From the NCBI GenBank assembly GCA_963924555.1, contig OZ004593.1, forward strand, positions 2,352,480-2,416,479: 64,000 bases of DNA. Reading direction: 5' to 3'. The notes below the pieces were generated by a model. That model worked only from the letters and a program-made list of their open reading frames with translations, was not told where the DNA came from and did no database searches. The position numbers and the translations under genes were made by a program. This DNA comes from Crambe crambe (taxonomy: Eukaryota > Porifera > Demospongiae > Poecilosclerida > Crambeidae). Shown here piece by piece: positions 42,743 to 61,038 of the stretch. Position 1 is the stretch's first letter, and the number at the start of each line of letters is the position of its first letter.

Positions 42743-45700
42743 TTACCATCCAAATCGTTCAGGGGGTCGGCAGTGTCGACTCGACTGTCGAGTGGGAGTG
42801 GCACGACTGTTAACCGAGCATGCCTGCTGTGTATGAGGTTGGTGCAGTGGTGATGCAGGAACAGCTGAATTGTCGGGATCTATTGGTGGTGCTGTGGTTA
42901 CTGTGGCAGGAGGCAAATCAGGAAGGTAGATATCATTTTCAGTGGTAGGTTCACTGGGTGGAACAGGAGCAATATTCCTGCTACGGACAGCATCAATATG
43001 ACGACGTACAGTACGACCAGAGTCTAACTCAACATGGTAGGAGAGTGGACCAGTAATTTTGGTTATTTTACCTGGAAGCCAGGTATTCTTAGTGGTTGAG
43101 AAGTCTTTCACATACACAGTATCACCTGCATGATAACTCCTGAGTGGTTTGTGATTGTCATGGTGCTCAGCTTGCTTTGCTTGCTGCCGCTCAACACGAT
43201 GGGAAATGTCCGGAAACAGTCTGTCCAGGCGTGATCGGGGACGACGGTTCATCAGCAGTTCTGCTGGAGGAATTCCGGTTGTGGTATGAGGAGTAATTCT
43301 ATATTTAAATAGAAATTTAGAAAGTCTTTCTTGAATTGAAGCTCCTGGTGTATGTTTAAGTCCACTTTTGAAGGTCTGGACTGCACGTTCGGCAAGGCCG
43401 TTACTGGATGGGTGGTAGGGAGCTGTGGTTGTATGTGTAATGCCGTTTTTGGATAAGAAAGTGTTAAACTCTTCACTCGTAAATGATGGACCATTGTCCG
43501 TTACAACTTTGTGTGGCAATCCATGGGTGGCAAATACAGAACGGAGTGTTTCAATAGTTTTTGAAGAAGTAATAGAGTTCATCAAGTGCACATCTAACCA
43601 TTTTGAGTGTGCGTCAACAAGCACTAAAAACATGTGCCCAAGAAATGGGCCAGCAAAATCGAGATGAAGCCTGCTCCATGGCTGTTGTGGCCATTCCCAT
43701 GGGTGGAGCGGGGCGGCTGCTGGTGCGGGTCGGGACTCTTGACATACATGACAAGTTTTCACCATTTGTTCAATCGCAGTATCCATGCCAGGCCACCAGA
43801 GATATGACCGTGCTAGAGCTTTCATTTTGCTTGTTCCTGGATGGGTTTCATGGAGTTCATCGAGGACGAGTTGTCTGCCTGGTGGAGGAATGATGATACG
43901 AGATCCCCTAAGAAGGCATCCATCAAGGACACTAAGTTCACTCCTACGTGAGGAGTACGGCCGATACTCCTTGTCCAAGAGCTCGTCAGGCCATCCAGAC
44001 ATTAAAAATCTGAGGACACAAGACATGACTGGGTCTTCAGCTGTCCACTGCTTGATGTTGGCAGCACTGACTGTTGTGGACGAGAGGTGATTGATGACCA
44101 GTACCAGATCCTGCGGCACACAATCACTGGACGTAGTGACTGGGCGAGGCAGGCAGCTAAGTGCGTCTGCATTACAGAGATGTTTCCCTGCCTTGTGGCG
44201 TATTGTATAACGGTATGCAGAAAGTGTAACTGCCCATCGTTGTATCCTGGATGAGGCCATATATGGGACTCTGTTATTCTCACCTAACAATGATTTCAAA
44301 GGTTGATGATCTGATTCGATCATGAAGTGACGTCCCCAGAGGTAATGATGGAATTTTTTCACTGCGAAGACAATGGCTAGTGCCTCCTTCTCCAACTGCG
44401 AGTAGTGTTTTTCGGCAGAAGATAGGGTTCTTGAGGCATACGCAACTGGACGTTCCTGACTGTCATCACCAATATGCGAGAGCACAGCACCTATGCCGTA
44501 ATCGGAAGCATCACATGCCAGAAGTAACGGCTTGGTAGTGTCATAATGGGTGAGGAGGGAATCTGCTTGCAGGGCCTCTTTTGCTGACTGGAAAGCTTCT
44601 TCTTGCTCGCAATTCCACTGCCATTTTTGATCCTTGTTTAGGAGGGAGTAGAGGGGGTTGAGTCGAGCAGAGAGATTAGGCAAAAATTTACCATAATAAT
44701 TAATGAGCCCGAGAAATGATCGAAGTTGGGTAACATTCTTGGGGTGAGGGGCTTCCTTGATTGCACGAACTTTCGATCCTGTGGGACGTAGGCCATCTTT
44801 ATCAATCACATGTCCCAAGTATTCAATGCTAGGACGAAGGAAAAAGCATTTTTCCTTGTTAAGGCGTAGACCTGCATCATCTAGCCGTTTCAAAACTTCT
44901 TTGAGGTTGTGTAAGTGATCTTCCATGGTGGTCCCTGCAACTAGGATGTCATCCAGGTAGACACTGACACCGTTGGCACCCTGCAGGAGCATCTCCATGT
45001 GACGCTGGAAAATTGCTGGGGCAGATGCCACACCATATGGCAAGCGGTTGTATTGGAAGAGACCTTTATGAGTGTTAATTGTCACGTACTGTTTCGATTG
45101 TTCATCCAGGGGAAACTGGAGATATGCATTGGAGAGGTCCAGCTTTGAGAAAAATTTTCCTGCAGAAAGATTAGCAAACAGTTCTTCTGCACGAGGCAGA
45201 GGGTAAGTTTCGGTAGGGGATACTTGGTTAATTGTAAGTTTGTAATCCCCACATAACCTAATTTTGCCATTCCGTTTTAACACAGGGACTACTGGTGCAG
45301 CCCACGAGGAAAACTGAACGGGAGAAATTATTCCTTTTTCCTGCAGTTGATTGAGTTCTTCTTCCACCTTAGGTTTCAGTAGGAAGGGGAGGGGTCGTGG
45401 CCTGTGGAATCTGGGCTTGGCTTGGTCATGCACCACTAACTGTACATTAACACCTTTCAAACAGCCAAGCTCATCTGTGAAAACAGCACTGTAGGTGTCT
45501 AGCAGAGTTTGCAAGGGAGTAAGTGATGTAACCATGTGAATACTTTTGAGGTCTACCTCCAACTGAGAGATCCAATCTCTACCCAATAAATTGGGGCCAC
45601 TCCCTGGTACCACATGTATTGACAATGACAACTCTTTCTTATCATACCTCGCTTTGATCCTGGTAGTGCCCAACACCTGGATGCTTTCTCCTGTGTAAGT

Positions 45701-46714
45701 GCGAAGCCTGCTGTTGGATGGTTCCAAGGCCTGTGATTCTCTCTGAATGGAGTTGTAGGTAGCTTCACTGATTACAGAAACGGCAGCTCCTGTGTCCAAT
45801 TCCATTTGCACAGGAAGGTCATTGAGGGTTACCATTATGTGATAAGGTTCAGTATGATTATCATGGAGGTTGTACAAATCATATTCGGCTTCAGCAGATG
45901 GTGACTCTGCTTCAATGTGGTTTGTTCGTGAGTATTTGGAGTCCTTGTTCTCCTGTGATTGAGAAGGTTGGGTCTGTAACTTCCTAGACCTGCACACCCG
46001 AGCGAAATGTCCTTTTTTCCTGCAGAAATTGCAGATAATCTCTTTGTACTTGCACTTGGGCGCAAGATGAGGTCCGCCACATCGGTAGCAACTGACAGGT
46101 GTACCTTCAGGACGGCGGCTTGAAGTAGTGTAGTGGAGATCAGGGTTGTTGTCCTGGAAGGGTTGCTGCGGTGATCCACCAGTCAGCTTCTTTGCATCTT
46201 GTTCTGAAGCTTCTGCTGCTTGGGCCAGCTTGAGGGCAGTACTGTAGGTAAGATCACTCTCAGAGAGCAGCTTGCGTTGTATTCCCGTATGGTTCACTCC
46301 GCAAACGAGCCTGTCCCTGAGCATCTCTTCAAGTCGTTCTGTCGGACCAAACTTGCAATCGAGAGCCAGATTTCGAAGGACGGCAACGTAGTCAGCAATG
46401 GATTCACCTTGATTCCTTGAACGAGTATTGAAATTGTAGCGATGCACTATAACCGACGTCTTAGGAGCGTAATGGTCTTTAAGTAAGGTAACAAGAGAAG
46501 TGTAAGTGATACCATCAGCGTCTAGCTCGCCATTGGGAACCATACTGCGGAGCAGTTTGTAAGCAGGGTCGCCACAGACCGTGAGCAAAATCGCACGCTT
46601 CTTGGTGTCGTCCACGATGCCATTAGCGGAAAAATAGAACTTCAGTTTGTCCTGGTAAATAGTCCAGTCGTCTACAGACGGTTGAAAGGGCTTGATTTTG
46701 CCGTAGGTAGCCAT
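42743..46714 (-). CDS. Gag-Pol polyprotein of the LTR retrotransposon (1323 aa)
   Basis: A single frame without stop. Gag comes first, with two zinc knuckles at residues ~209-241 (CYRCGGPHLAPKC and CNFCRKKGHFARVC). The aspartic protease follows (LDTGAAVSV, ~306), then reverse transcriptase (YLDDILVAG, ~586) and RNase H (LACDASDYGIGAVL, ~732). Integrase has an HHCC finger (~956-992) and a DDE core (LDFAG ~1019, VTDNG ~1073, SNGLAERA with Glu ~1109). The domain order RT-RNase H-integrase defines Ty3/gypsy. Gag and Pol share one frame without a shift. Length is typical for the compact K02A2.6-like/Mag-type members. All catalytic residues that I can check are present, so the copy could be active. 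Confidence 0.97.
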   Translation of the reverse strand: MATYGKIKPFQPSVDDWTIYQDKLKFYFSANGIVDDTKKRAILLTVCGDPAYKLLRSMVPNGELDADGITYTSLVTLLKDHYAPKTSVIVHRYNFNTRSRNQGESIADYVAVLRNLALDCKFGPTERLEEMLRDRLVCGVNHTGIQRKLLSESDLTYSTALKLAQAAEASEQDAKKLTGGSPQQPFQDNNPDLHYTTSSRRPEGTPVSCYRCGGPHLAPKCKYKEIICNFCRKKGHFARVCRSRKLQTQPSQSQENKDSKYSRTNHIEAESPSAEAEYDLYNLHDNHTEPYHIMVTLNDLPVQMELDTGAAVSVISEATYNSIQRESQALEPSNSRLRTYTGESIQVLGTTRIKARYDKKELSLSIHVVPGSGPNLLGRDWISQLEVDLKSIHMVTSLTPLQTLLDTYSAVFTDELGCLKGVNVQLVVHDQAKPRFHRPRPLPFLLKPKVEEELNQLQEKGIISPVQFSSWAAPVVPVLKRNGKIRLCGDYKLTINQVSPTETYPLPRAEELFANLSAGKFFSKLDLSNAYLQFPLDEQSKQYVTINTHKGLFQYNRLPYGVASAPAIFQRHMEMLLQGANGVSVYLDDILVAGTTMEDHLHNLKEVLKRLDDAGLRLNKEKCFFLRPSIEYLGHVIDKDGLRPTGSKVRAIKEAPHPKNVTQLRSFLGLINYYGKFLPNLSARLNPLYSLLNKDQKWQWNCEQEEAFQSAKEALQADSLLTHYDTTKPLLLACDASDYGIGAVLSHIGDDSQERPVAYASRTLSSAEKHYSQLEKEALAIVFAVKKFHHYLWGRHFMIESDHQPLKSLLGENNRVPYMASSRIQRWAVTLSAYRYTIRHKAGKHLCNADALSCLPRPVTTSSDCVPQDLVLVINHLSSTTVSAANIKQWTAEDPVMSCVLRFLMSGWPDELLDKEYRPYSSRRSELSVLDGCLLRGSRIIIPPPGRQLVLDELHETHPGTSKMKALARSYLWWPGMDTAIEQMVKTCHVCQESRPAPAAAPLHPWEWPQQPWSRLHLDFAGPFLGHMFLVLVDAHSKWLDVHLMNSITSSKTIETLRSVFATHGLPHKVVTDNGPSFTSEEFNTFLSKNGITHTTTAPYHPSSNGLAERAVQTFKSGLKHTPGASIQERLSKFLFKYRITPHTTTGIPPAELLMNRRPRSRLDRLFPDISHRVERQQAKQAEHHDNHKPLRSYHAGDTVYVKDFSTTKNTWLPGKITKITGPLSYHVELDSGRTVRRHIDAVRSRNIAPVPPSEPTTENDIYLPDLPPATVTTAPPIDPDNSAVPASPLHQPHTQQACSVNSRATPTRQSSRHCRPPERFGW

Positions 46715-46759
46715 AGTTCACTGTTGTTGTTTCTTTTTTTTTTTCTCCTCGTCGCCAGA

Positions 46760-46931: not shown

Positions 46932-49570
46932 GTAATGAATTCAGTCATTGAATATTTCTCCTTGGTCTATATTGGTAGCATTAATATCTCAGTGAAGATT
47001 CAGCTGGAAAAACCATCACATTAATTGAAGTTGAGGCTTCTGATACCATTAATTAAAGATGTTAATTCCAAGATCCAAGAATTACAACGATCCACCTTGG
47101 ATGTTGTGTTATAGCGCATTATGAAAATCTATATGAAAACTCTTACTGGAAAAACAATCACCCCTGAAGTGGAACTTTCTGATACTATCCTAGATGTCAA
47201 GTCCAAGATTGAAATTGAAGAAGGAATTCCACCCGCCCAACAGCAACTAGCAAACTTGAAGATCGTCATACACTGGCTGATTATAATATCCAGGATGATC
47301 GAGTCCACCCTTCATCTTCTTAGAGGTGGCATGCAAATATAATACAAAAACACCTACTGGAAGGTCTATCACCCTTAAGGTAGAAGCTCAGTCTAAAGAA
47401 TGTCAAGTCAAAGATTCGGGAATTCCATCAGAAGAGCAGTTGCTTGTCTTTGCTGGGAAGCAACTGCATGATGGCTCTACAATATACAGAAACAATCCAC
47501 CCTGGGTCTTGTATGGCTAGAGACAATAAAAATCTATGTGAAAACTCATACTGGAAAAACAGGTGGAAAACTTTTGGTCCAATATTGAAATTGAAGAAGG
47601 AATTCCACCTGATCAACAGTGACTCATATTTGTTAGCAAGCAACTTGAACTTCAAGATGGTTGTACAATGGCTGATTAAATATCCAGAATGAGTGTGGCA
47701 TGCAAATATATGCAAAGACCCCTGCTGGAAAGGTCATCACCCTTGAGGTAAAAGCTTCTGACTGTCAAGTCAAAGATTCAGGACAAAGAAGGAATTCAAC
47801 AGTTGCTTGTTTTTGTCGGGAAGCAACTGCATAATGGCTACGCATTGTCAGACTACAAACAATCCACCTTTACTGGAAAACCACTCTTAAGGCCTTGAGG
47901 TGGAGAACTTCAAGTCAAAAATTCAGGACGAAGAAGGAATTCCACCAGACCAACAGCGACCCATCTTTGCTGGCAAGCAACTTGAAGACAGTCATACACT
48001 GGCTGATTGTGATATCCAGAATGAGCTTCATCTTGTATTGCATCTTAGAGGTGGGATGCAAATATGTGTGAAACCGGTCATCCACCCTTGAGGTAGAAGC
48101 TTCTGACAATATTGAGGATGTTAAGTCAAAGATTCAGAACAAAGAAGAAATTCCACCATTTGACTTGTCTTTGCTGGGAAGCAACTGCATGACTGTAATG
48201 AAATTGAAGAAGGAATTCCACCAGACCAACAGTGACTCATCTTTGCTGGCAAGCAACTTCAGGATGATTAATTATAATATCCAGAATGAGTCCACCATTC
48301 ATCTTGTATTGCGTCTTAGAGGTGGCATGCAAATGCAAAAACCTCAACTGGAAAGGTCATCATCCTTGAGGCAGAAGCTGCTGGCACTATTGCAAATATC
48401 AAGTCAAAGATTCAGAGAAGGAATTCCACCTGAAGAACAGTTGCTGGGAAGCACTGCATGATGGCTACACACTGTCAGACTATAATATATACAGAAAAAA
48501 TCCACCCTGGATCTTGTACTGTTAGGCATGAAGAAAATCAATGTGAAAACTCTTACTGGAAAAACCATCACCCTTGAGGTGGAACTTTCCGATACTATCC
48601 TAGATGTCAAGTCCAAGATTGAAATTGAAGAAGGAATTCCACCTGACCAACAGCGACTCATCTCTAATGGCAAGCAACTTGAAGATGGTTATACACTGGC
48701 TGATTATAATATCCAGAATGAGTCCACCATTCATCTTGTATTGCATCTTAGAGGTGGCATGGAAATAGTTATATACAAAAATCCCAACTGGAAAGGTCAT
48801 CACCCTTGAGGCAGATGCTGCTGATGCTATTGTGAATATCAAGTCAAAGATTCCTTCATCAAAAGTTACGTCCACTTGGTGATCTTACTATGAAGACTGT
48901 TACTGGCAGAATTATCACCTATAGGGCTGAGCCTTCAATTCCAAGTCCAAGATTTCAAACAAGGAAGAAATCCCACCTGCTAATCGAATGGTATTGCATG
49001 AGGAAAGAGTTTTATTTGGCCAAAGATACACTCAAAGAGAAGATACTTGCTTTCAAAACTGAAAAAGAAGAAACTCTGACCCTTCTTGTAGAACCATCTT
49101 ACACTATTGATCGTGTAAAATCCAATATTGCAGATAAAATCCAGATCTTACCTGACCAACAACGACTTTTATTTGCTAATGAGGAACTCATGGAAGGTGA
49201 CTAGCTACACTCTTTCTGACTATAGCATCAGAAATGATTCTACTCTTCATTTATATAAGTGTAAGTATAATACAATAATCCAATAATTTGTATTATGTGA
49301 AGAGTGATTGTCCATTAAATTCAATTTTTCAGCTGGTGAATTCGAATCCTATGTTTTCTCCCTTCCTGCTCGGGCCCGCCCCCACTTGTATTGGCAGTTA
49401 GATTGGGACAATGAAGAGACCTCAATTTTATAGCGGAGCACATGTTGGATTGGGAGGAGAAACTCTCAGCTTTATTGGGATTGAGATATGTTGATATTAT
49501 CAAGAAGGAATTTGGAAATAAAAGGCCTATACTTGAACAGTAGGTGAGATCTAACTACTGAGTACTTAAT
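46932..49570 (+). pseudogene. Decayed copy of the tandem ubiquitin-like/death-domain gene
   Basis: It starts TAATGAATTCAGTCATTGAA, as the intact copy does near 53744, and ends at CTACTGAGTACTTAAT (~49570), as the other does near 59070. In between are remnants of about ten ubiquitin-like domains with many deletions and frame breaks; the best are at 47121-47270, 48528-48770 and 49040-49200. The death-domain exon (49333-49539) keeps its acceptor and much of its sequence but has lost codons. It is 2.6 kb against 5.3 kb for the better copy, so domains were lost. The retrotransposon cut it from its upstream DNA. I call it a pseudogene with high confidence. Confidence 0.9.
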
Positions 49571-53725: not shown

Positions 53726-53746
53726 GTGTACTATTAGATATACATA

Positions 53747-56700
53747 ATGAATTCAGTCATTGAATATTATTACCCCTTGGTCTTTACTGGTAGCATTAAT
53801 ATCTCAGTGAAGACTTCAGCTGGAGAAACCATCACTATAATTGAAGTCAAGGCTTCTGATACTGTCAAAAATGTTAAATCCAAGATCCAAGACAAAGAAG
53901 GAATATCATCTGAATTACAACAACTCAGTTTAGGTGGGAAACAACTGCATGATGACCACATATTGGGAGACTATAATATACAGAAACAATCCACCTTGGA
54001 TGTTGTGTTGTTATACAAAATCAAAATCTATGTGAAAACTCTTACTGGAAAAACCATCACCCTTGAGGTGGAACTTTCTGATACTATCCTAGATGTCAAG
54101 TCCAAGATTGGAATTGAAGAAGGAATTCCACCCGACCAACAGCGACTCATCTTTGCTAGTGAACTTGAAGATGGTCGTACACTGGCTGATTATAATATCC
54201 AGAATGAATCTACCCTTCATCTTCTTAGAGGTCCAGGTGGCATGCAAATATATGCAAAAACCCCTACTGAAAAGGTCATCACCCTTAAGGTAGAACCTTC
54301 TGACATTATTAAGAATGTCAAGTCAAAGATTCAGGACAAAGAAGGAATTCCACCAGACCAACAGCGACTCATCTTTGCTGGCAAGCAACTTGAAGATGGT
54401 CGTACACTGGCTGATTATAATATTCAGAACGAGTCCACCCTTCATCTTCTACTGCGTCTGAGAGGTGGCATGGAAATATATGCAAAAACCTCAACTGGAA
54501 AGGTCATCACCCTTGAGGTAGAAGCTTCTGACACTATTACGAACGTCATGTCAAAGATTCAGGACAAAGAAGGAATTCCACCTGAAGAACAGTTGCTTAT
54601 CTTTTCTGGGAAACAACTGAATTTTGACTACACATTGTCAGACTATAATATACAGAAACAATCCACACTGGATCTCGTATTGTTAGAGACAATGAAAATT
54701 TATGTGAAAACTCTAAGACTTACTGGAAAAACCATCACCCTTGAGGTGGAGAACTTTGATACTATTGAGAATGTCAAATCAAAAATTCAGGACAAAGAAG
54801 GAATTCCACCTGACCACCAGCGACTCATTTTTGCTGGCAAGCAACTTGAAGACAGTCATACACTGGCTGATTATAATATCCAGAACGAGTCCACCATTCG
54901 TCTTGTATTGCATCTTAAAGGTGGCATGCAAATATTTGCAAAAACCTCAACTGGAAAGGTCATCACCCTTGAGGTAGAAGCTTCTGACACTATTAAGATT
55001 GTCAAATCAGAGATTCAGGATAAGGAAGGAATTCCACCAGAAGAACAGTTGTTTGTCTTTGCTGGGAAGCAACTGCATGATGGCTACACATTGTCAGACT
55101 ACGATATACAGAAACAATCCACCCTGGATCTCGTATTGCTAAGGACAATGAAAATCTATGTGAAAACTCTTACTGGAAAAACCATCACCCTTGAGGTGGA
55201 GAACTTTGATAGTATTGAGAATGTCAAGTCAAAAATTCAGGACAAAGAAGGAATTCCACCTGACCAACAGCGACTCATCTTTGCTGGCAAGCAACTTGAA
55301 GACGGTTATACACTGGCTGATTATAATATCCAGAACGAGTCCACCATTCATCTTGTATTGCGTCTTAGAGGTGGTATGCAAATATGTGTGAAAACCCATA
55401 CTGGAAAGGTCATCACCCTTGAGGTAGAAGCTTCTGACACTATTGAGAATGTCAAGTCAAAGTATCAGGACAGAGAAGGAATTCCACCTGAGGAGCAGTT
55501 ACTTGTCTTTGCTGGGAAGCAACTGCATGATGGCTACACATTGTCAGACTATAATATACGGAAACTATCCACCCTGGATCTCATATCATTAGGATTAGGC
55601 ACAAAGAAAATCTATTTGAAAACTCTTACTGGAAAGACCATCACCCTTGAGGTGGAACTTTCTGATACTATCTTGGCTGTCAAGTCCAAGATAGAAATTG
55701 AAGAAGGAATTCCACCTGGCCAACAGCGACTCATCTTTGCTGGCCAACAACTTGAAGATGGTCGTACACTGGCTGATTATAATATCCAGAACAAGACCAC
55801 CCTTCATCTCATATTGTGTCGTTACATGGAAATATATGCAAAGACCCCTGATGGAAAGGTCATCACCCTTGAGGTAGAAGTTTCTGACACTATTAAGATT
55901 GTCAAGTCAAAGATTCAAGACAAAGAAGAAATTCCACCTGAAGAACATTTGCTTGTTTTTGCTGGGAAGCAACTGCATGATGGTTACACATTGTCAGACT
56001 ACGATATACAGAAACAATCCACCCTGGATCTTGTATTGCTAAGGACAATGAAAATCTATGTGAAAACTCTTACTGGAAAAACCATCACCCTTGAGGTGGA
56101 GAACTTTGATACTATTGAGAATGTCAAGTCCAAGATTGAAATTGAAGAAGGAATTCCACCAGACCAACAGCGACTCATCTTTGCTGGCAAGCAACTTGAA
56201 GACGGTCATACACTGGCTGATTATAATATCCAGAACGAGTCCACCATTCATCTTGTATTGCGTCTTAGAGGTGGTATGCAAATATGTGTAAAAACCCCTA
56301 CTGGAAAGGTCATTACCCTTGAGGTAGAAGCTTCTGACACTATTAAGATTGTCAAATCAAAGATTCAGGATAAAGAAGGAATTCCACCAGAAGAGCAGTT
56401 ACTTGTCTTTGCTGGGAAACAACTGCATGACGACTACACATTGTCAGACTATAATATACGGAAACAATCCACCCTGGATCTCGTATTGTTAGAAACAATG
56501 AAAATTTATGTGAAAACTCTTACTGGAAAAACCATCACCCTTGAGGTGGAGAACTTTGATACTATTGAGAATGTCAAGTCCAAGATTGAAATTGAAGAAG
56601 GAATTCCACCAGACCAACAGCGACTCATCTTTGCTGGCAAGCAATTTGAAGACGGTCATACACTGGCTGATTATAATATCCAGAACGAGTCCACCATTCA

Positions 56701-59623
56701 TCTTGTATTGCGTCTTAGAGGTGGTATGCAAATATGTGTAAAAACCCCTACTGGAAAGGTCATCACCCTTGAGGTAGAAGCTTCTGACACTATTAAGATT
56801 GTCAAATCAAAGATTCAGGATAAAGAAGGAATTCCACCAGAAGAGCAGTTGCTTGTCTTTGCTGGGAAACAACTGCATGATGACTACACATTGTCAAACT
56901 ATAATATACGGAAACAATCCACACTGGATCTCGTATTGTTAGAAACAATGAAATTTATGTGAAAACTCTTACTGGAAAAACCATCACCCTTGAGGTGGAG
57001 AACTTTGATAGTATTGAGAATGTCAAGTCAAAAATTCAGGACAAAGAAGGAATTCCACCTGACCACCAGCGACTCATTTTTGCTGGCAAGCAACTTGAAG
57101 ACAGTCATACACTGGCTGATCGTGATATCCAGAATGAGTACACCCTTCATCTTGTATTGCGTCTTAAAGGTGGCATGCAAATATTTGCAAAAACCTCAAC
57201 TGGAAAGATCATCACCCTTGAGGTAGAAGCTTCTGACACTATTAAGATTGTCAAATCAAAGATTCAGGATAAAGAAGGAATTCCACCAGAAGAGCAGTTG
57301 TTCATCTTTGCTGGGAAGCAACTGCATGATGGCTACACATTGTCAGACTACAATGTACAGAAACAATCCACCCTGGATCTCGTATGGTTAGAGACAATGA
57401 AAATGAAAATCTATGTGAAAACTCTTACTGGAACAACCATCACCCTTGAGGTGGAGAACTTTGATACTATCCTAGATATCAAGTCCAAGATTGAAATTGA
57501 AGGAGGAATTCCATCGCCCTTGAGGTGGAACTTTCTGATACTATTGAGAATGTCAAATCCAAGATCAAAGATAAGGAAGGAATTTCACCTAACCAACATC
57601 TCATCTTTACTGGGCAGCAACTTGAAGAAAGTTTTATATTACCAGTACAGAAAGAATCCACTCTTCATCCTGTCTCTGATAGTATCCAAATCTTTGTGAG
57701 GACTTATATTGGAAAAGAAATTACACTTCAGGTACTAGCTTGTGATACAATCAAGGATGTTAAGCACAAGATCCAAGATAGAGAAGGAATTTCACCAGAC
57801 CAACAGATTCTCACCTTCAATAAGAGGATACTTGAAGATGGCTGTACTCTGTCTGATTATAATATAGAAGAAGGATTTACCCTTGCTCTTAACTTATTGC
57901 ATAGCATGGAAATTTATGTGAAGACTCCTTCTGGCATGATCATCTCCCTTGAAGTGGAAGCTTCTGATACAATAGAGAGTATCAAATCAAAGATCCAAGA
58001 GAAGAAAGGTATTCCTTGCAGTGAACAGAAACTCCTCTATGCAAGGGAGCAACTAGAGGATTCATATACTTTAGCTCATTACAACATTCAACAAAGATTC
58101 ATCCTTCAGCTTGTAGTACGATCTGGAGACATGGAAGTCTTTGTGATGACATTAAAAGGAAAGACCATTACCCTAGATGTCAAAGCTTCTAATACTATTC
58201 GAGAGCTCAAATCTAAAATTGAAGGAATTCCACCTGACCAGCAACGACTCATTTTTGCTGACAAGATACTTGAAGATGACCGTTTATTGTCAGATTACAA
58301 TATTCAAGAAGGGTCCACCCTTCATCAAAAGTTACGTCCAATTGGTGATTTTACTATGAAGACTGTTACTGGCAGAATTATCACCTATAGGGCTGAGCCT
58401 TCCATTGCTTATAATTCCAAGTCCAAGATTCCAGAAATCCCACCTGCTAATCAAATGGTATTGCATGAGGAAAGAGTTTTATTTGGCCAAAGATATGCTC
58501 AAAGAGAAGATACTCGCTTTCAAATCTTTATAAAGACTGAAAAAGAAGAAACTCTGACCCTTCTTGTAGAACCATCTTACACTATTGATCGTGTAAAATC
58601 CAATATTGCAGATAAAATCCAGATCTTACCTGACCAACAACGACTTTTATTTGCTAATGAGGAGCTCATGGAAGGTGACCATACTCTTTCCGACTATAGC
58701 ATCAGAAATGAGTCTACTCTTCATTTATATAAGTGTAAGTATAATACAATAATCTGTAATTATGATTGTCCAATAAAATTTAATGTACTTAGCTAATTCA
58801 GTACTTTAATTTTCAGCTGGTGAATTCGAATCCTATGTTTCCTCCCTTCCTGCTCGGGCCCGCCCCCACTTGTATCGGCAGTTAGATTGGGACAATGAAG
58901 GAGTGGAAAGGGACCTCAATTTTATAGCGGAGCACATGTTGGATTGGGAGGAGAAACTCTCAGCTTTATTGGGATTCAGATATGTTGATATACATGACAT
59001 CAAGAAGGAATTTGAAAATAAAAGGCCTATACTTGAACGGTAGGTGGGATCTAACTACTGAGTACTTAATGATGTAGAATCAGCTGAAGGTGGGGGCGAA
59101 AAAGGCTGAAAGTCACATAGTCAACCAGCCCCCACTATTTTGGTGCTTCAGTCGCCACCCCTGATGAACTTAAAAGGACCCTTCTTGAATAGATAATGGA
59201 TAAACTGCTTTTGTGTCCTTATAGTATGTAGCTAATACTATTCTGTACATACAGGAGGGCTGTCTTGAGACTGTGGAAGGAGAAGCAAGGGATTTATGCA
59301 ACCTACAGGAGTCTGCTGAGAATCTGCTGCAAGGGCAAACACACGCGTGCTGCTGCAGCCATTTGTGAGGTGCTAAGGAAGAGGGAGGAAGGTATGTAAA
59401 CCATGCATGAGTGAAGCACCATTGACCTTTATATTAACAGCTAGCTAGCTACCTTGCCAATTATTGACATAAAGGTGTAGGCTAGTTAAGCTAGATATGG
59501 TTATACTAGCTAGCTATAGATCCCTTCCCCACCCAAGCTAGAGGATGTTAGCTGGCTAATTTTGATAACTTTTATTATCAATTTTTGTTATTGTTTATTT
59601 CTGTAGCCATACCACTTCCATGA
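53747..59623 (+). CDS. Tandem ubiquitin-like domain array with C-terminal death domain (frame broken twice)
   Basis: Array exon to 58734 (real start probably the acceptor at 53794), then exons 58817-59039, 59255-59391 and 59607-59623 (ends AIPLP, TGA), with GT-AG sites and matching phases. I count about 23 ubiquitin-like domains of ~75 residues. Type A ([12 protein letters not shown]...[14 protein letters not shown], often ending LRLRGG) alternates with type B ([12 protein letters not shown]...[14 protein letters not shown], ending LVLLET). K48 is kept in both, K63 mainly in B, and L8 and I44 are altered in B. The last six domains are divergent. The spliced tail, starting [11 protein letters not shown], holds [42 protein letters not shown] and AAAAICEVL, a death-domain pattern. 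Two -1-type frame changes (near 56950 and 57510) split the array, so it is a pseudogene, variant or assembly error, or else read differently. Confidence 0.8.
56942..56962 (+). other. First frameshift in the ubiquitin-like array
   Basis: Every other unit here has ATGAAAAT(T/C)TATGTG. This one reads ATGAAATTTATGTG, one A short, and runs into TGA at 56960-56962. The next frame resumes with [12 protein letters not shown] at once. Confidence 0.9.
57505..57530 (+). other. Second frameshift: fusion of two half-domains
   Basis: GGAATTCCATCGCCCTTGAG joins the middle of one unit (GGAATTCCACC...) to the start of another (ACCATCACCCTTGAGG) with loss of about half a domain and a change of frame. Short shared CCATC/ACC sequence at the join fits a microhomology deletion. 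Confidence 0.8.
58817..59391 (+). other. Death-domain coding exons of the ubiquitin-like array gene
   Basis: Two exons (58817-59039 and 59255-59391) encode about 120 residues. The death fold ([16 protein letters not shown] through [10 protein letters not shown]) spans the intron, which interrupts it after PILER. Death domains form homotypic assemblies in apoptosis and innate immune signalling (established). The conserved W, LG, DI.DI, LW and ATY..L positions can be read directly. The same exon survives in the decayed copy at 49333-49539. Confidence 0.8.
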
Positions 59624-59955
59624 AGTTAAAGCCAGTATAATGGAGTGTATCACGTGTGTAGCCATACCCATTTGCAATGTTAGCTTGCCTTTCACAATCA
59701 CATTTATACTTATACAATATTGTGTCAAAATGAATTCTATATACACACATGGACAATACATTATTGTGTCACCTTTTAACCTTTGTACTCTTGGTTTACG
59801 TGATCAAACACCGTCCGCGTTATGCTACGAAGGTGGAGTTAGGAACTGTAGCAATATCTATGGTGGACACAATCGGGTGAGTTCCGAATTTTAATCAGCT
59901 AGACATAAATGAATGAATGTAGCTAGCTATGATTCTTATTTTCGCATACAGTTTT
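59624..59955 (+). other. Leader region of the glycosyltransferase gene
   Basis: A probable non-coding exon ends at 59876-59877 with donor GGTGAGT, and the acceptor CGCATACAG precedes 59952. The 84-codon frame at 59640 ends inside the intron and is probably not translated. Confidence 0.45.
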
Positions 59956-61038
59956 ATGTCCTATACGAGGTGGAATAAGAGATTGATCGTCAGGCTTTTG
60001 GTGGTCATTGCCATCTTGGTTTTCCTGTACCATGGTGGGTACTACTTCCTAAAGTTCATAGGCTTCAAAGGTCGTATCGTCAATTCAGATGCCCTAAAGG
60101 GCTTTACTTACTGCTCTGTGACTGATACCTCAATGTCAAACTTTTCTAAAATGTATCCTTGCCATTTCAAGCCAGCACCCAAGCCAAATGACGTCTTGAT
60201 AGTGACATTTGTGAATTCTGGATGGATACCGCTAGCTCGTAACTGGATTTGTTCTGCAGAGAAAGTCGGATTGAAGGGTAACTTGTATGTGGTATCATTT
60301 GAGAGAGGAGTGTGCTCAAAGTTGCCGGGAGTGCCTTGCTATGAACACCCTACTGTCCACATCAAACAAGCAGCATTTTCTCAACCACAATATCAGAAAT
60401 TAGTCATTGAGAGGACAAGAATTATTCTCAAGTTATTATCCTGTTGGCCGAAAATATTCTTAGTTGATGCTGATATAACTTTCCTTAAAAATCCGCTCAG
60501 CTACTTGAAGGATGTTATGATAGATAAAGACATAGTGTTCCAAGCTGATAGTTCTGAAAGTGAATTTGTAGAAGGTGTTCTATCGAGATTTTTTCATTAC
60601 ATCTGTGGTGGTTTTATATACATGAAATCAAATTATGCCACGAAGCAATTGTGGCTATCAGTTCTACAATACCAGGAAAAATTTCTCTGGAATGACCAAG
60701 CTGGACTGAATGTTTGCATTCGTTACCACTCCCAGTCTGTACAGTGGACCACTCTAGATTCTGAGTATTTTCCGAATGGACAGCAATTCTTTTTCAATGG
60801 TATGAAAAGCAGTAAGAACATAATTGTCCATTCCAACCATTTGAAAAATTACACCAAGATAGCTCACATGATTGGCTCTGATGTTTGGTGTTACAAGGAA
60901 TTTGCACTTGAAATGTGTGGAGGAAGGACTTATAAGAAGCATTGTACCCCAAGATCCAGTGGTGTTGCCACACCCAAATGGTGTCACCATGAGCAATTTA
61001 TCAGGGCATGCAGGACTAAGTACAACATGACCTCATAA
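59956..61038 (+). CDS. Type II membrane glycosyltransferase, GT77-like (about 360 aa)
   Basis: The coding part is one exon. I prefer the ATG at 59956, just after an acceptor (TTCGCATACAG), over 59929, which lies in the intron. The protein begins MSYTRWNKRLIVRLLVV, a short cytosolic tail and one signal-anchor helix (about residues 9-32), so it should face the Golgi lumen. The donor-sugar site is IFLVDADITFLKNP (DxD about residues 171-173), typical of nucleotide-diphospho-sugar transferases of the GT77/PF03407 type. NWICSAEKVGL and WNDQAGLNVC fit the same fold. Several cysteines near the C-terminus (WCYKEF, EMCGG, WCHHEQF, ACRTKY) suggest disulfides. The donor sugar and acceptor cannot be read from sequence. 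It follows the death-domain gene by ~330 bp on the same strand. Confidence 0.8.
   Translation: MSYTRWNKRLIVRLLVVIAILVFLYHGGYYFLKFIGFKGRIVNSDALKGFTYCSVTDTSMSNFSKMYPCHFKPAPKPNDVLIVTFVNSGWIPLARNWICSAEKVGLKGNLYVVSFERGVCSKLPGVPCYEHPTVHIKQAAFSQPQYQKLVIERTRIILKLLSCWPKIFLVDADITFLKNPLSYLKDVMIDKDIVFQADSSESEFVEGVLSRFFHYICGGFIYMKSNYATKQLWLSVLQYQEKFLWNDQAGLNVCIRYHSQSVQWTTLDSEYFPNGQQFFFNGMKSSKNIIVHSNHLKNYTKIAHMIGSDVWCYKEFALEMCGGRTYKKHCTPRSSGVATPKWCHHEQFIRACRTKYNMTS

Follow-up and report, generated by a model that had tools for sequence, protein, structure and literature searches.

Assembly of linear ubiquitin chains normally takes place after translation, and proteases take the chains off again. The tandem arrays of Crambe crambe described here resemble polyubiquitin genes of the UBB/UBC type in that ubiquitin units are encoded head to tail. 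Where such genes have near-identical, GG-ended units and lack an unrelated C-terminal domain, however, the arrays are diverged, have few GG ends and are spliced to Death, ZU5 or Roc-COR-like exons. Death and ZU5 domains are found together in proteins of the PIDD, UNC5 and ankyrin type, and ZU5 of the PIDD type cleaves itself at HFS. Some sister genes of the locus also possess Death and ZU5 parts, but with a ubiquitin array in front of them (order Ub-Death-ZU5), and the copy in the window (the whole stretch of 64,000 nucleotides that was analysed) has no ZU5. Other sister genes resemble ROCO proteins in having a Roc-COR-like region, though the Roc and COR-A scores in these sisters stay below the Pfam cut-offs and the region is absent from the window.

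Fused ubiquitin-like domains have also been described for OASL. OASL has two such domains; those of mammals are without LRLRGG and are regarded as poly-ubiquitin mimics that bind the CARDs of RIG-I (PMC8764230). The likeness to the arrays lies in the fusion of ubiquitin-like domains into one protein, which in the case of OASL is an immune protein whose CARD partners have a death fold; in addition, the tandem domain of chicken OASL (7sbi) is among the fold matches of a dimer model of the window units (ranks 35 and 36). OASL differs in carrying two units on a nucleotidyltransferase, whereas up to 21 units are joined to a death domain here. As for the non-conjugable tandem domains of an OASL-like mimic, loss of GG is seen in the arrays, and an immune role is suggested by the domains to which they are joined. 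TRADD-N-polyubiquitin fusions of animals are named in one sentence of another paper, and UPA-ZU5 and FIIND fusions in the next (PMC8195603). As named there, polyubiquitin is likewise joined to an adaptor of apoptosis and immunity, but this adaptor is TRADD-N rather than a death domain with a Roc-COR-like or ZU5 part. The abbreviations in a figure legend of a paper on the NLRs of Dysidea avara include UBQ and COR (PMC12909245). Among the papers listed from open-licence full texts, none was found, by title and start of abstract, that deals with ubiquitin array-death-ZU5 or ubiquitin array-death-Roc-COR proteins. The statement of a first-pass annotation that no family with this architecture is described is too strong, given the precedents which OASL (PMC8764230) and the TRADD-N-polyubiquitin fusions (PMC8195603) provide.

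Tandem diverged ubiquitin units span positions 53747-58734 of the window (Table 1). Searches with phmmer gave 23 ubiquitin matches, several of them partial or weak, which are distributed over ORFs at 53738-56962 (14 matches), 56905-57699 (3) and 57501-58796 (6) in three different frames. The Pfam ubiquitin scores of these ORFs are 1073.7, 189.6 and 282.8 bits, respectively, far above chance. The earlier description of the units as diverged, as opposed to the identical units of polyubiquitin genes, is confirmed. The first-pass annotation had also described about 23 ubiquitin-like domains followed by a spliced death domain; the number of units and the spliced death domain stand, but one continuous reading frame does not. 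At the first break the window reads ATGAAATTTATG where neighbouring units read ATGAAAATTTATG. ORF2 reads into the 74-bp repeat, and only ORF3 shares its frame with the death exons. As assembled, translation from the first ATG yields a 1071-aa protein of 14 units without the death domain. A motif scan for an intron that bypasses both breaks (donors at 56300-57560, acceptors at 56900-57700) gave two donor-like and three acceptor-like sites and no convincing intron. The long chain product proposed for this locus is an architecture that is real in sister genes (see below) but frame-broken in the window copy.

Table 1. Features of the array-death locus and its duplicate (positions in the window).
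Feature	Position	Strand	Remark
Decayed duplicate of the array-death gene	46937..49540	+	Retains the array, death exon 1 and the same donor/acceptor pair; numerous stops and indels
Ubiquitin array ORF1, 14 units	53747..56962	+	ATG 53747, stop 56962
Frame break 1, single A missing relative to neighbouring units	56945..56960 (near 56950)	+	
Ubiquitin array, ORF2 frame	56950..57515	+	2 units and first half of a third
Frame break 2	57437..57584	+	74-bp out-of-frame tandem repeat within one unit
Ubiquitin array, ORF3 frame	57501..58734	+	6 more diverged units, the first truncated; in frame with death exons
Intron GTAAGT...TTTTCAG	58735..58816	+	Junction alike at all six loci read
Death-domain exon 1	58817..59039	+	
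Intron GTAGGT...CATACAG	59040..59254	+	
Death-domain exon 2	59255..59391	+	
Putative short last exon, AIPLP-stop	59607..59623	+	Weak; acceptor and stop its sole support

From unit 3 on, the window units are mostly of two alternating types, A and B, and this alternation accounts for the 450-bp period of the array. The A units mostly keep L8, I44, V70 and H68, have N63 and mostly end in RLRGG, RLKGG or HLKGG. In the B units, residue 8 is P, S or H; most of them have V44, D68 and K63, and LLET or LLRT is the usual ending. Structure prediction for an A-B dimer from the window gave two ubiquitin folds (mean pLDDT 91.4, pTM 0.54). The best fold matches of this model in the PDB are linear di-ubiquitin, and the tandem ubiquitin-like domains of ISG15 and OASL are matched from rank 34 onward.

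The GTAAGT donor that follows the last unit of ORF3 joins the array to the two death-domain exons. The joined 124-aa product is assigned to Death (PF00531) by Pfam with 26.0 bits (cut-off 22.6, E 1e-5), such that the HMM scan of the spliced product which had been proposed as a check on the death domain recognises it rather than rejecting it. Death exon 1 by itself has no Pfam match, indicating that splicing is required for the death domain to show. The domain also matches ankyrin-2 weakly (E 0.0057). No ZU5, Roc-COR or second C-terminal death-like domain was found in the window by tblastn, and the 1.5 kb past the window end (L060) were inspected as ORFs. The next ORF downstream of the locus (59923-61038, + strand, 371 aa) is nucleotide-sugar transferase-like by eye.

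The genome (143 Mb, 119 contigs) contains at least 119 matches to the window ubiquitin dimer (best 150 of 178 candidates scored) and at least 159 matches to the death sequence (best 150 of 311 candidates scored). On contig C17, arrays are followed by a death exon of the same type in the same orientation at 1296k, 1325k, 1808k, 1817k, 1821k, 2524k, 2533k and 4245k, the death exon at C17:4245k being called by eye from an ORF and absent among the death-sequence matches listed. Together with the window copy this makes nine array-death neighbours, to which the decayed copy is additional. Six loci, the window among them, were read across the array-death junction, and all of them have a GTAAGT or GTGAGT donor and an acceptor AG followed by CTGG. 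The sister arrays have 3 to 21 matched units each. Array units are identical to ubiquitin at 23 to 71 of 76 positions, and the genome has two true polyubiquitin genes with units identical at 73-74 of 76, all ending in GG. The 1296k model (Ub15-Death-acidic linker-Roc/COR-like) is open for 1985 residues from the first ubiquitin unit, and the 1821k model (Ub9-Death-ZU5) is open to the end of the ZU5 exon; the exon after death exon 2 in two sister models thus encodes either ZU5 or an acidic linker and a Roc-COR-like part. At 1310k, 18 units share one frame of 2093 aa with a Roc-COR-like region, no death exon lying between the two, and the order of ORFs at 4245k, read by eye, is Ub6, Death-like, Roc-like, COR-like and ZU5-like. 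The L033 and L035 loci contain masked stretches. The sister genes, with their arrays, death domain, common splice junction and near-absent GG ends, establish that diverged and mostly GG-less ubiquitin chains encoded in the genome do occur joined to a death domain. This architecture belongs to a multigene family with Roc-COR-like and ZU5 parts, which had been absent from the first-pass annotation. Arrays of nine very diverged ubiquitin-like units each were also seen at C20:2090k (L037) and C15:7145k (L038), in single frames of 982 and 710 aa; none of these 18 units ends in GG, and no death exon was noticed among the nearby ORFs read.

All five sister death domains that were scanned as spliced sequence exceed the Pfam Death cut-off (25.4-36.1 bits versus 22.6), and the death part of L033, read through its intron, scores 18.1 bits, below that cut-off. 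COR-A scores 31.2 and 34.2 bits in sister genes (cut-off 35.3) and Roc 18.1 bits (cut-off 27), all below the thresholds; the Roc-COR-like region of L030 (701 aa) aligns over 98% of its length, at 49% identity, with a protein for which Roc and COR-A domains are precomputed. ZU5 of L034 is over the cut-off of 21 with 22.6 bits, that of L033 is below it with 20.9 bits, and Pfam gave no match to ZU5 in L032 and L042. The C-terminal death-like parts of sister genes score 17.0 and 12.8 bits, below the Pfam cut-off. The ZU5 parts of L034, L032 and L042 end in LKHFC or LKHFY, and the Cys variant (LKHFC) may or may not allow self-cleavage.

The same death subtype is strongly expanded on contigs C6 and C3, where it forms dense clusters at C6:8.39-8.67 Mb and C3:7.45-7.82 Mb and represents a large gene family. 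Six of the C6 and C3 death loci were read as ORFs, and several have Roc-COR-like or ZU5-like ORFs alongside, as judged by eye. An unrooted tree of 16 death sequences has a branch (92/92, found in 93% of 200 bootstrap trees) with the nine array-linked sequences all to the same side, which is compatible with a single origin of the fusion. Counting against a firm reading of this tree, 7 of its 13 inner branches are open and L042 has a long branch. By path, the nearest row to the window death domain is L045, which is not array-linked. Elsewhere in the genome, at L043:2543-4613, a Death-like ORF is followed by an ORF with two ubiquitin-like parts and RING/IBR-like cysteines that by eye is similar to an RBR ligase.

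When the 3' stretches of the main copy and its decayed duplicate are aligned, the duplicate has several frame-breaking indels while the frame of the main copy is open. The main copy has therefore probably remained under constraint for longer, with two breaks that either arose recently or stem from the assembly. The window locus is a damaged member of the multigene array-death family and, as assembled, is no source of the full protein. Constraint on it probably lasted until recently; barring assembly errors at the breaks, it is by now either a young pseudogene or a gene truncated to 14 units. That the window copy is merely a pseudogene, a duplicated array-death gene which lost its frame beside an older dead copy, is slightly favoured. 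It would account for the two frame breaks, for the decayed tandem duplicate and for the lack of ZU5, Roc or a C-terminal death-like exon among tblastn matches in the window. The array pieces and death exons, on the other hand, are otherwise open across about 5 kb, and break 1 amounts to one base in a short A run, which could be an assembly error. A dN/dS of 0.26 among the units of ORF1 likewise speaks against it (compared to 0.33 at 1296k, 0.65 at 1310k, 0.52 at 1325k, 0.43 at 1808k and 0.32 at 1821k), with all of these within-array values being influenced by duplication and conversion. Pseudogene status of the window copy does not explain the sister genes away, and it is compatible with a role of the family either as a scaffold or as a decoy. 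Upstream of the duplicate, a 1324-aa ORF on the minus strand (42743-46717) has gag, reverse transcriptase and integrase-like parts and by eye is a Gypsy-type retroelement. This ORF ends just ahead of the start of the decayed array copy, and the retroelement may mark how the duplicate was placed.

In four arrays, amino-acid changes per site amount to 0.50-1.86 in the core versus 1.45-3.25 at other surface sites, with the core lower in all four; the core and Ile44-face positions are those commonly assigned to ubiquitin rather than calculated ones. The ubiquitin fold is kept in the arrays, and the standard recognition face is not specially kept. L8, I44 and V70 are the residues normally used in reading ubiquitin. 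For the surface ranking, 88 units were used (117 minus 2 with fewer than 28 identities and 27 near-duplicates), in which L8, V70 and I44 rank 43, 48 and 50 by identity among 56 surface positions and are hydrophobic in 64%, 82% and 87% of units, respectively. A conserved L8/I44/V70 face, as expected of a linear (M1) chain read by UBAN, was not found in these units, since most other surface residues are better conserved than these three. Mimicry of such a chain, or reading of the array as a ubiquitin chain, is therefore unproven, and canonical ubiquitin reading may have been lost in the arrays. In the recently duplicated 1310k array, pN (0.076) is close to pS (0.079), so that constraint is weak in that array.

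Possible partners of the arrays were also found in the genome. A match to the NEMO/optineurin-type CC2-LZ (UBAN) domain scores 34.1 bits, just below the Pfam cut-off of 35.3. The ORF concerned carries IYHEDFDRERNARE, and a 66-aa piece of it has matches among the NEMO chains of the PDB, the best of them at E 7e-4 and with IYKADFQAERQARE as the aligned sequence. A partial HOIP-UBA match (positions 57-104 of 152) is over its cut-off with 26.3 bits versus 22.4. Together these two matches suggest that linear-ubiquitin machinery is present. A search of the genome for OTULIN gave no match, but it is uninformative since the control was equally silent. The earlier idea that the array acts as a signalling platform gains plausibility from the UBAN and HOIP-UBA matches, and loses some from the broken frame of the window copy and the lack of conservation of L8, I44 and V70.

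The chances are about even that the array would provide a cell-death or innate-immune pathway with a multivalent scaffold that is fixed and encoded in the genome. The ubiquitin-fold units exposed by the array would bind partners, which could be host readers such as the UBAN protein or ubiquitin-aimed factors of an invader. The death domain would then nucleate homotypic assembly with related death domains, of which the genome has many; in some of the sisters assembly would be gated by the Roc-COR-like GTPase.

The main functional rival of the scaffold is a decoy or sensor, in which the units would bait invader proteins that attack ubiquitin, and binding or cutting of the units would release death-domain signalling. 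The first steps are common to both, and what differs is the binder of the units. Integrated decoys occur in plant immune receptors, and by analogy with these a decoy is conceivable here, though rather unlikely. Repeated expansion and mosaic partners would fit it, as would the surface sites R54, K63, A46, R42 and I44, at which pN is above mean pS in the recently duplicated arrays at 1310k and 1325k (without their first and last units). These per-site pN values are noisy, however, coming from few changes, and no effector is known. Moreover, changes on the Ile44 face are not in significant excess over those at other surface sites (permutation, pooled p 0.19; 0.11-0.57 by array), so that positive selection on this face, hinted at by raw pN, is unconfirmed by the permutation test.

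Many units were said by the first-pass annotation to lack the terminal GG, and GG ends are indeed found in just 7 of the 23 window units. The ten sister arrays have them in 3 of 94 units (two in the 2525k array and one in the 2521k array), and the two true polyubiquitin genes in 10 of 10. With GG ends nearly absent from the sister arrays, most of their junctions should resist ubiquitin proteases, judging from the known specificity of these enzymes. Alternatively, the product could be a polyprotein precursor from which ubiquitin proteases, by cutting GG junctions, free monomers or B-A dimers as modifiers. Several window A units do keep RLRGG followed by M, and the GG ends of the window, 2525k and 2521k units would likewise permit such cutting. 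Many units of the three large sister arrays, however, lack an initial Met (the linkers being shortened), and a precursor is quite improbable and, since the sister arrays have hardly any GG ends, was discarded as the leading idea.

That a polyubiquitin array lies by chance beside an unrelated death-domain gene can practically be dismissed, for although the frame breaks divide most of the window array from the death exons, there are nine array-death neighbours of the same orientation in one genome, splicing is alike at all six loci read and the parts are joined in frame at all three loci modelled.

A protein search with the 1325k array gave 1146 proteins. Unit number and non-ubiquitin stretches were determined for the 120 best, one of which (P0068) seems to be window ORF1 itself. 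A non-ubiquitin stretch of more than 80 aa is present in 24 of the best 120, and 17 stretches from 15 of them were compared with the Roc-COR-like region. Six ENA proteins with 14-19 units (P0060, P0091, P0093, P0103, P0112 and P0120) match this region with best E values of 3e-13 to 5e-20 and 21-23% identity. In P0060, P0091 and P0103, neither Roc nor COR was recognised by Pfam at E 0.001, and COR-A of P0120 scores 21.2 bits, below the cut-off of 35.3. In the brittle star Amphiura filiformis, P0052 combines 16 units (8 counted as GG-ended) with NACHT and ZU5 domains, each over its cut-off, and P0116 joins 15 units to a kinase domain that is likewise over cut-off. The occurrence of similar arrays on NACHT-ZU5 and kinase proteins suggests that fusions of this sort may have more than one origin. 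The precomputed lists for the best 120 of 1146, inspected by eye, showed no protein that combines ubiquitin with Death (PF00531) at the Pfam level; the one death-like tail found, that of P0014 (31 units), scores 16.1 bits, below the cut-off. When the Roc-COR-like and Death-ZU5 regions were used as queries, 3 and 4 proteins, respectively, were returned, with ubiquitin listed in none.

It is possible, if doubtful, that these proteins represent a class of animal innate-immune or cell-death receptors in which a pre-made and largely uncuttable N-terminal ubiquitin chain is combined with a death domain and a GTPase, and which has spread by domain shuffling (Ub-Death-Roc/COR, Ub-Death-ZU5, Ub-NACHT-ZU5 and Ub-kinase) over several animal lineages. 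If so, the chain would be expressed ready-made instead of being built by LUBAC, and death-domain assembly and chain-dependent recruitment would be united in one molecule. Such a hard-wired version of the linear-chain signal would allow a direct test of whether a fixed chain suffices for death-domain signalling, and the family would tie ubiquitin arrays to the Roc-COR, ZU5 and death repertoire. Also among the proteins found, P0016 of Hydra vulgaris (2320 aa) has, with no other stretch of more than 80 aa, a diverged array of thirty ubiquitin units, five of which were counted as GG-ended.
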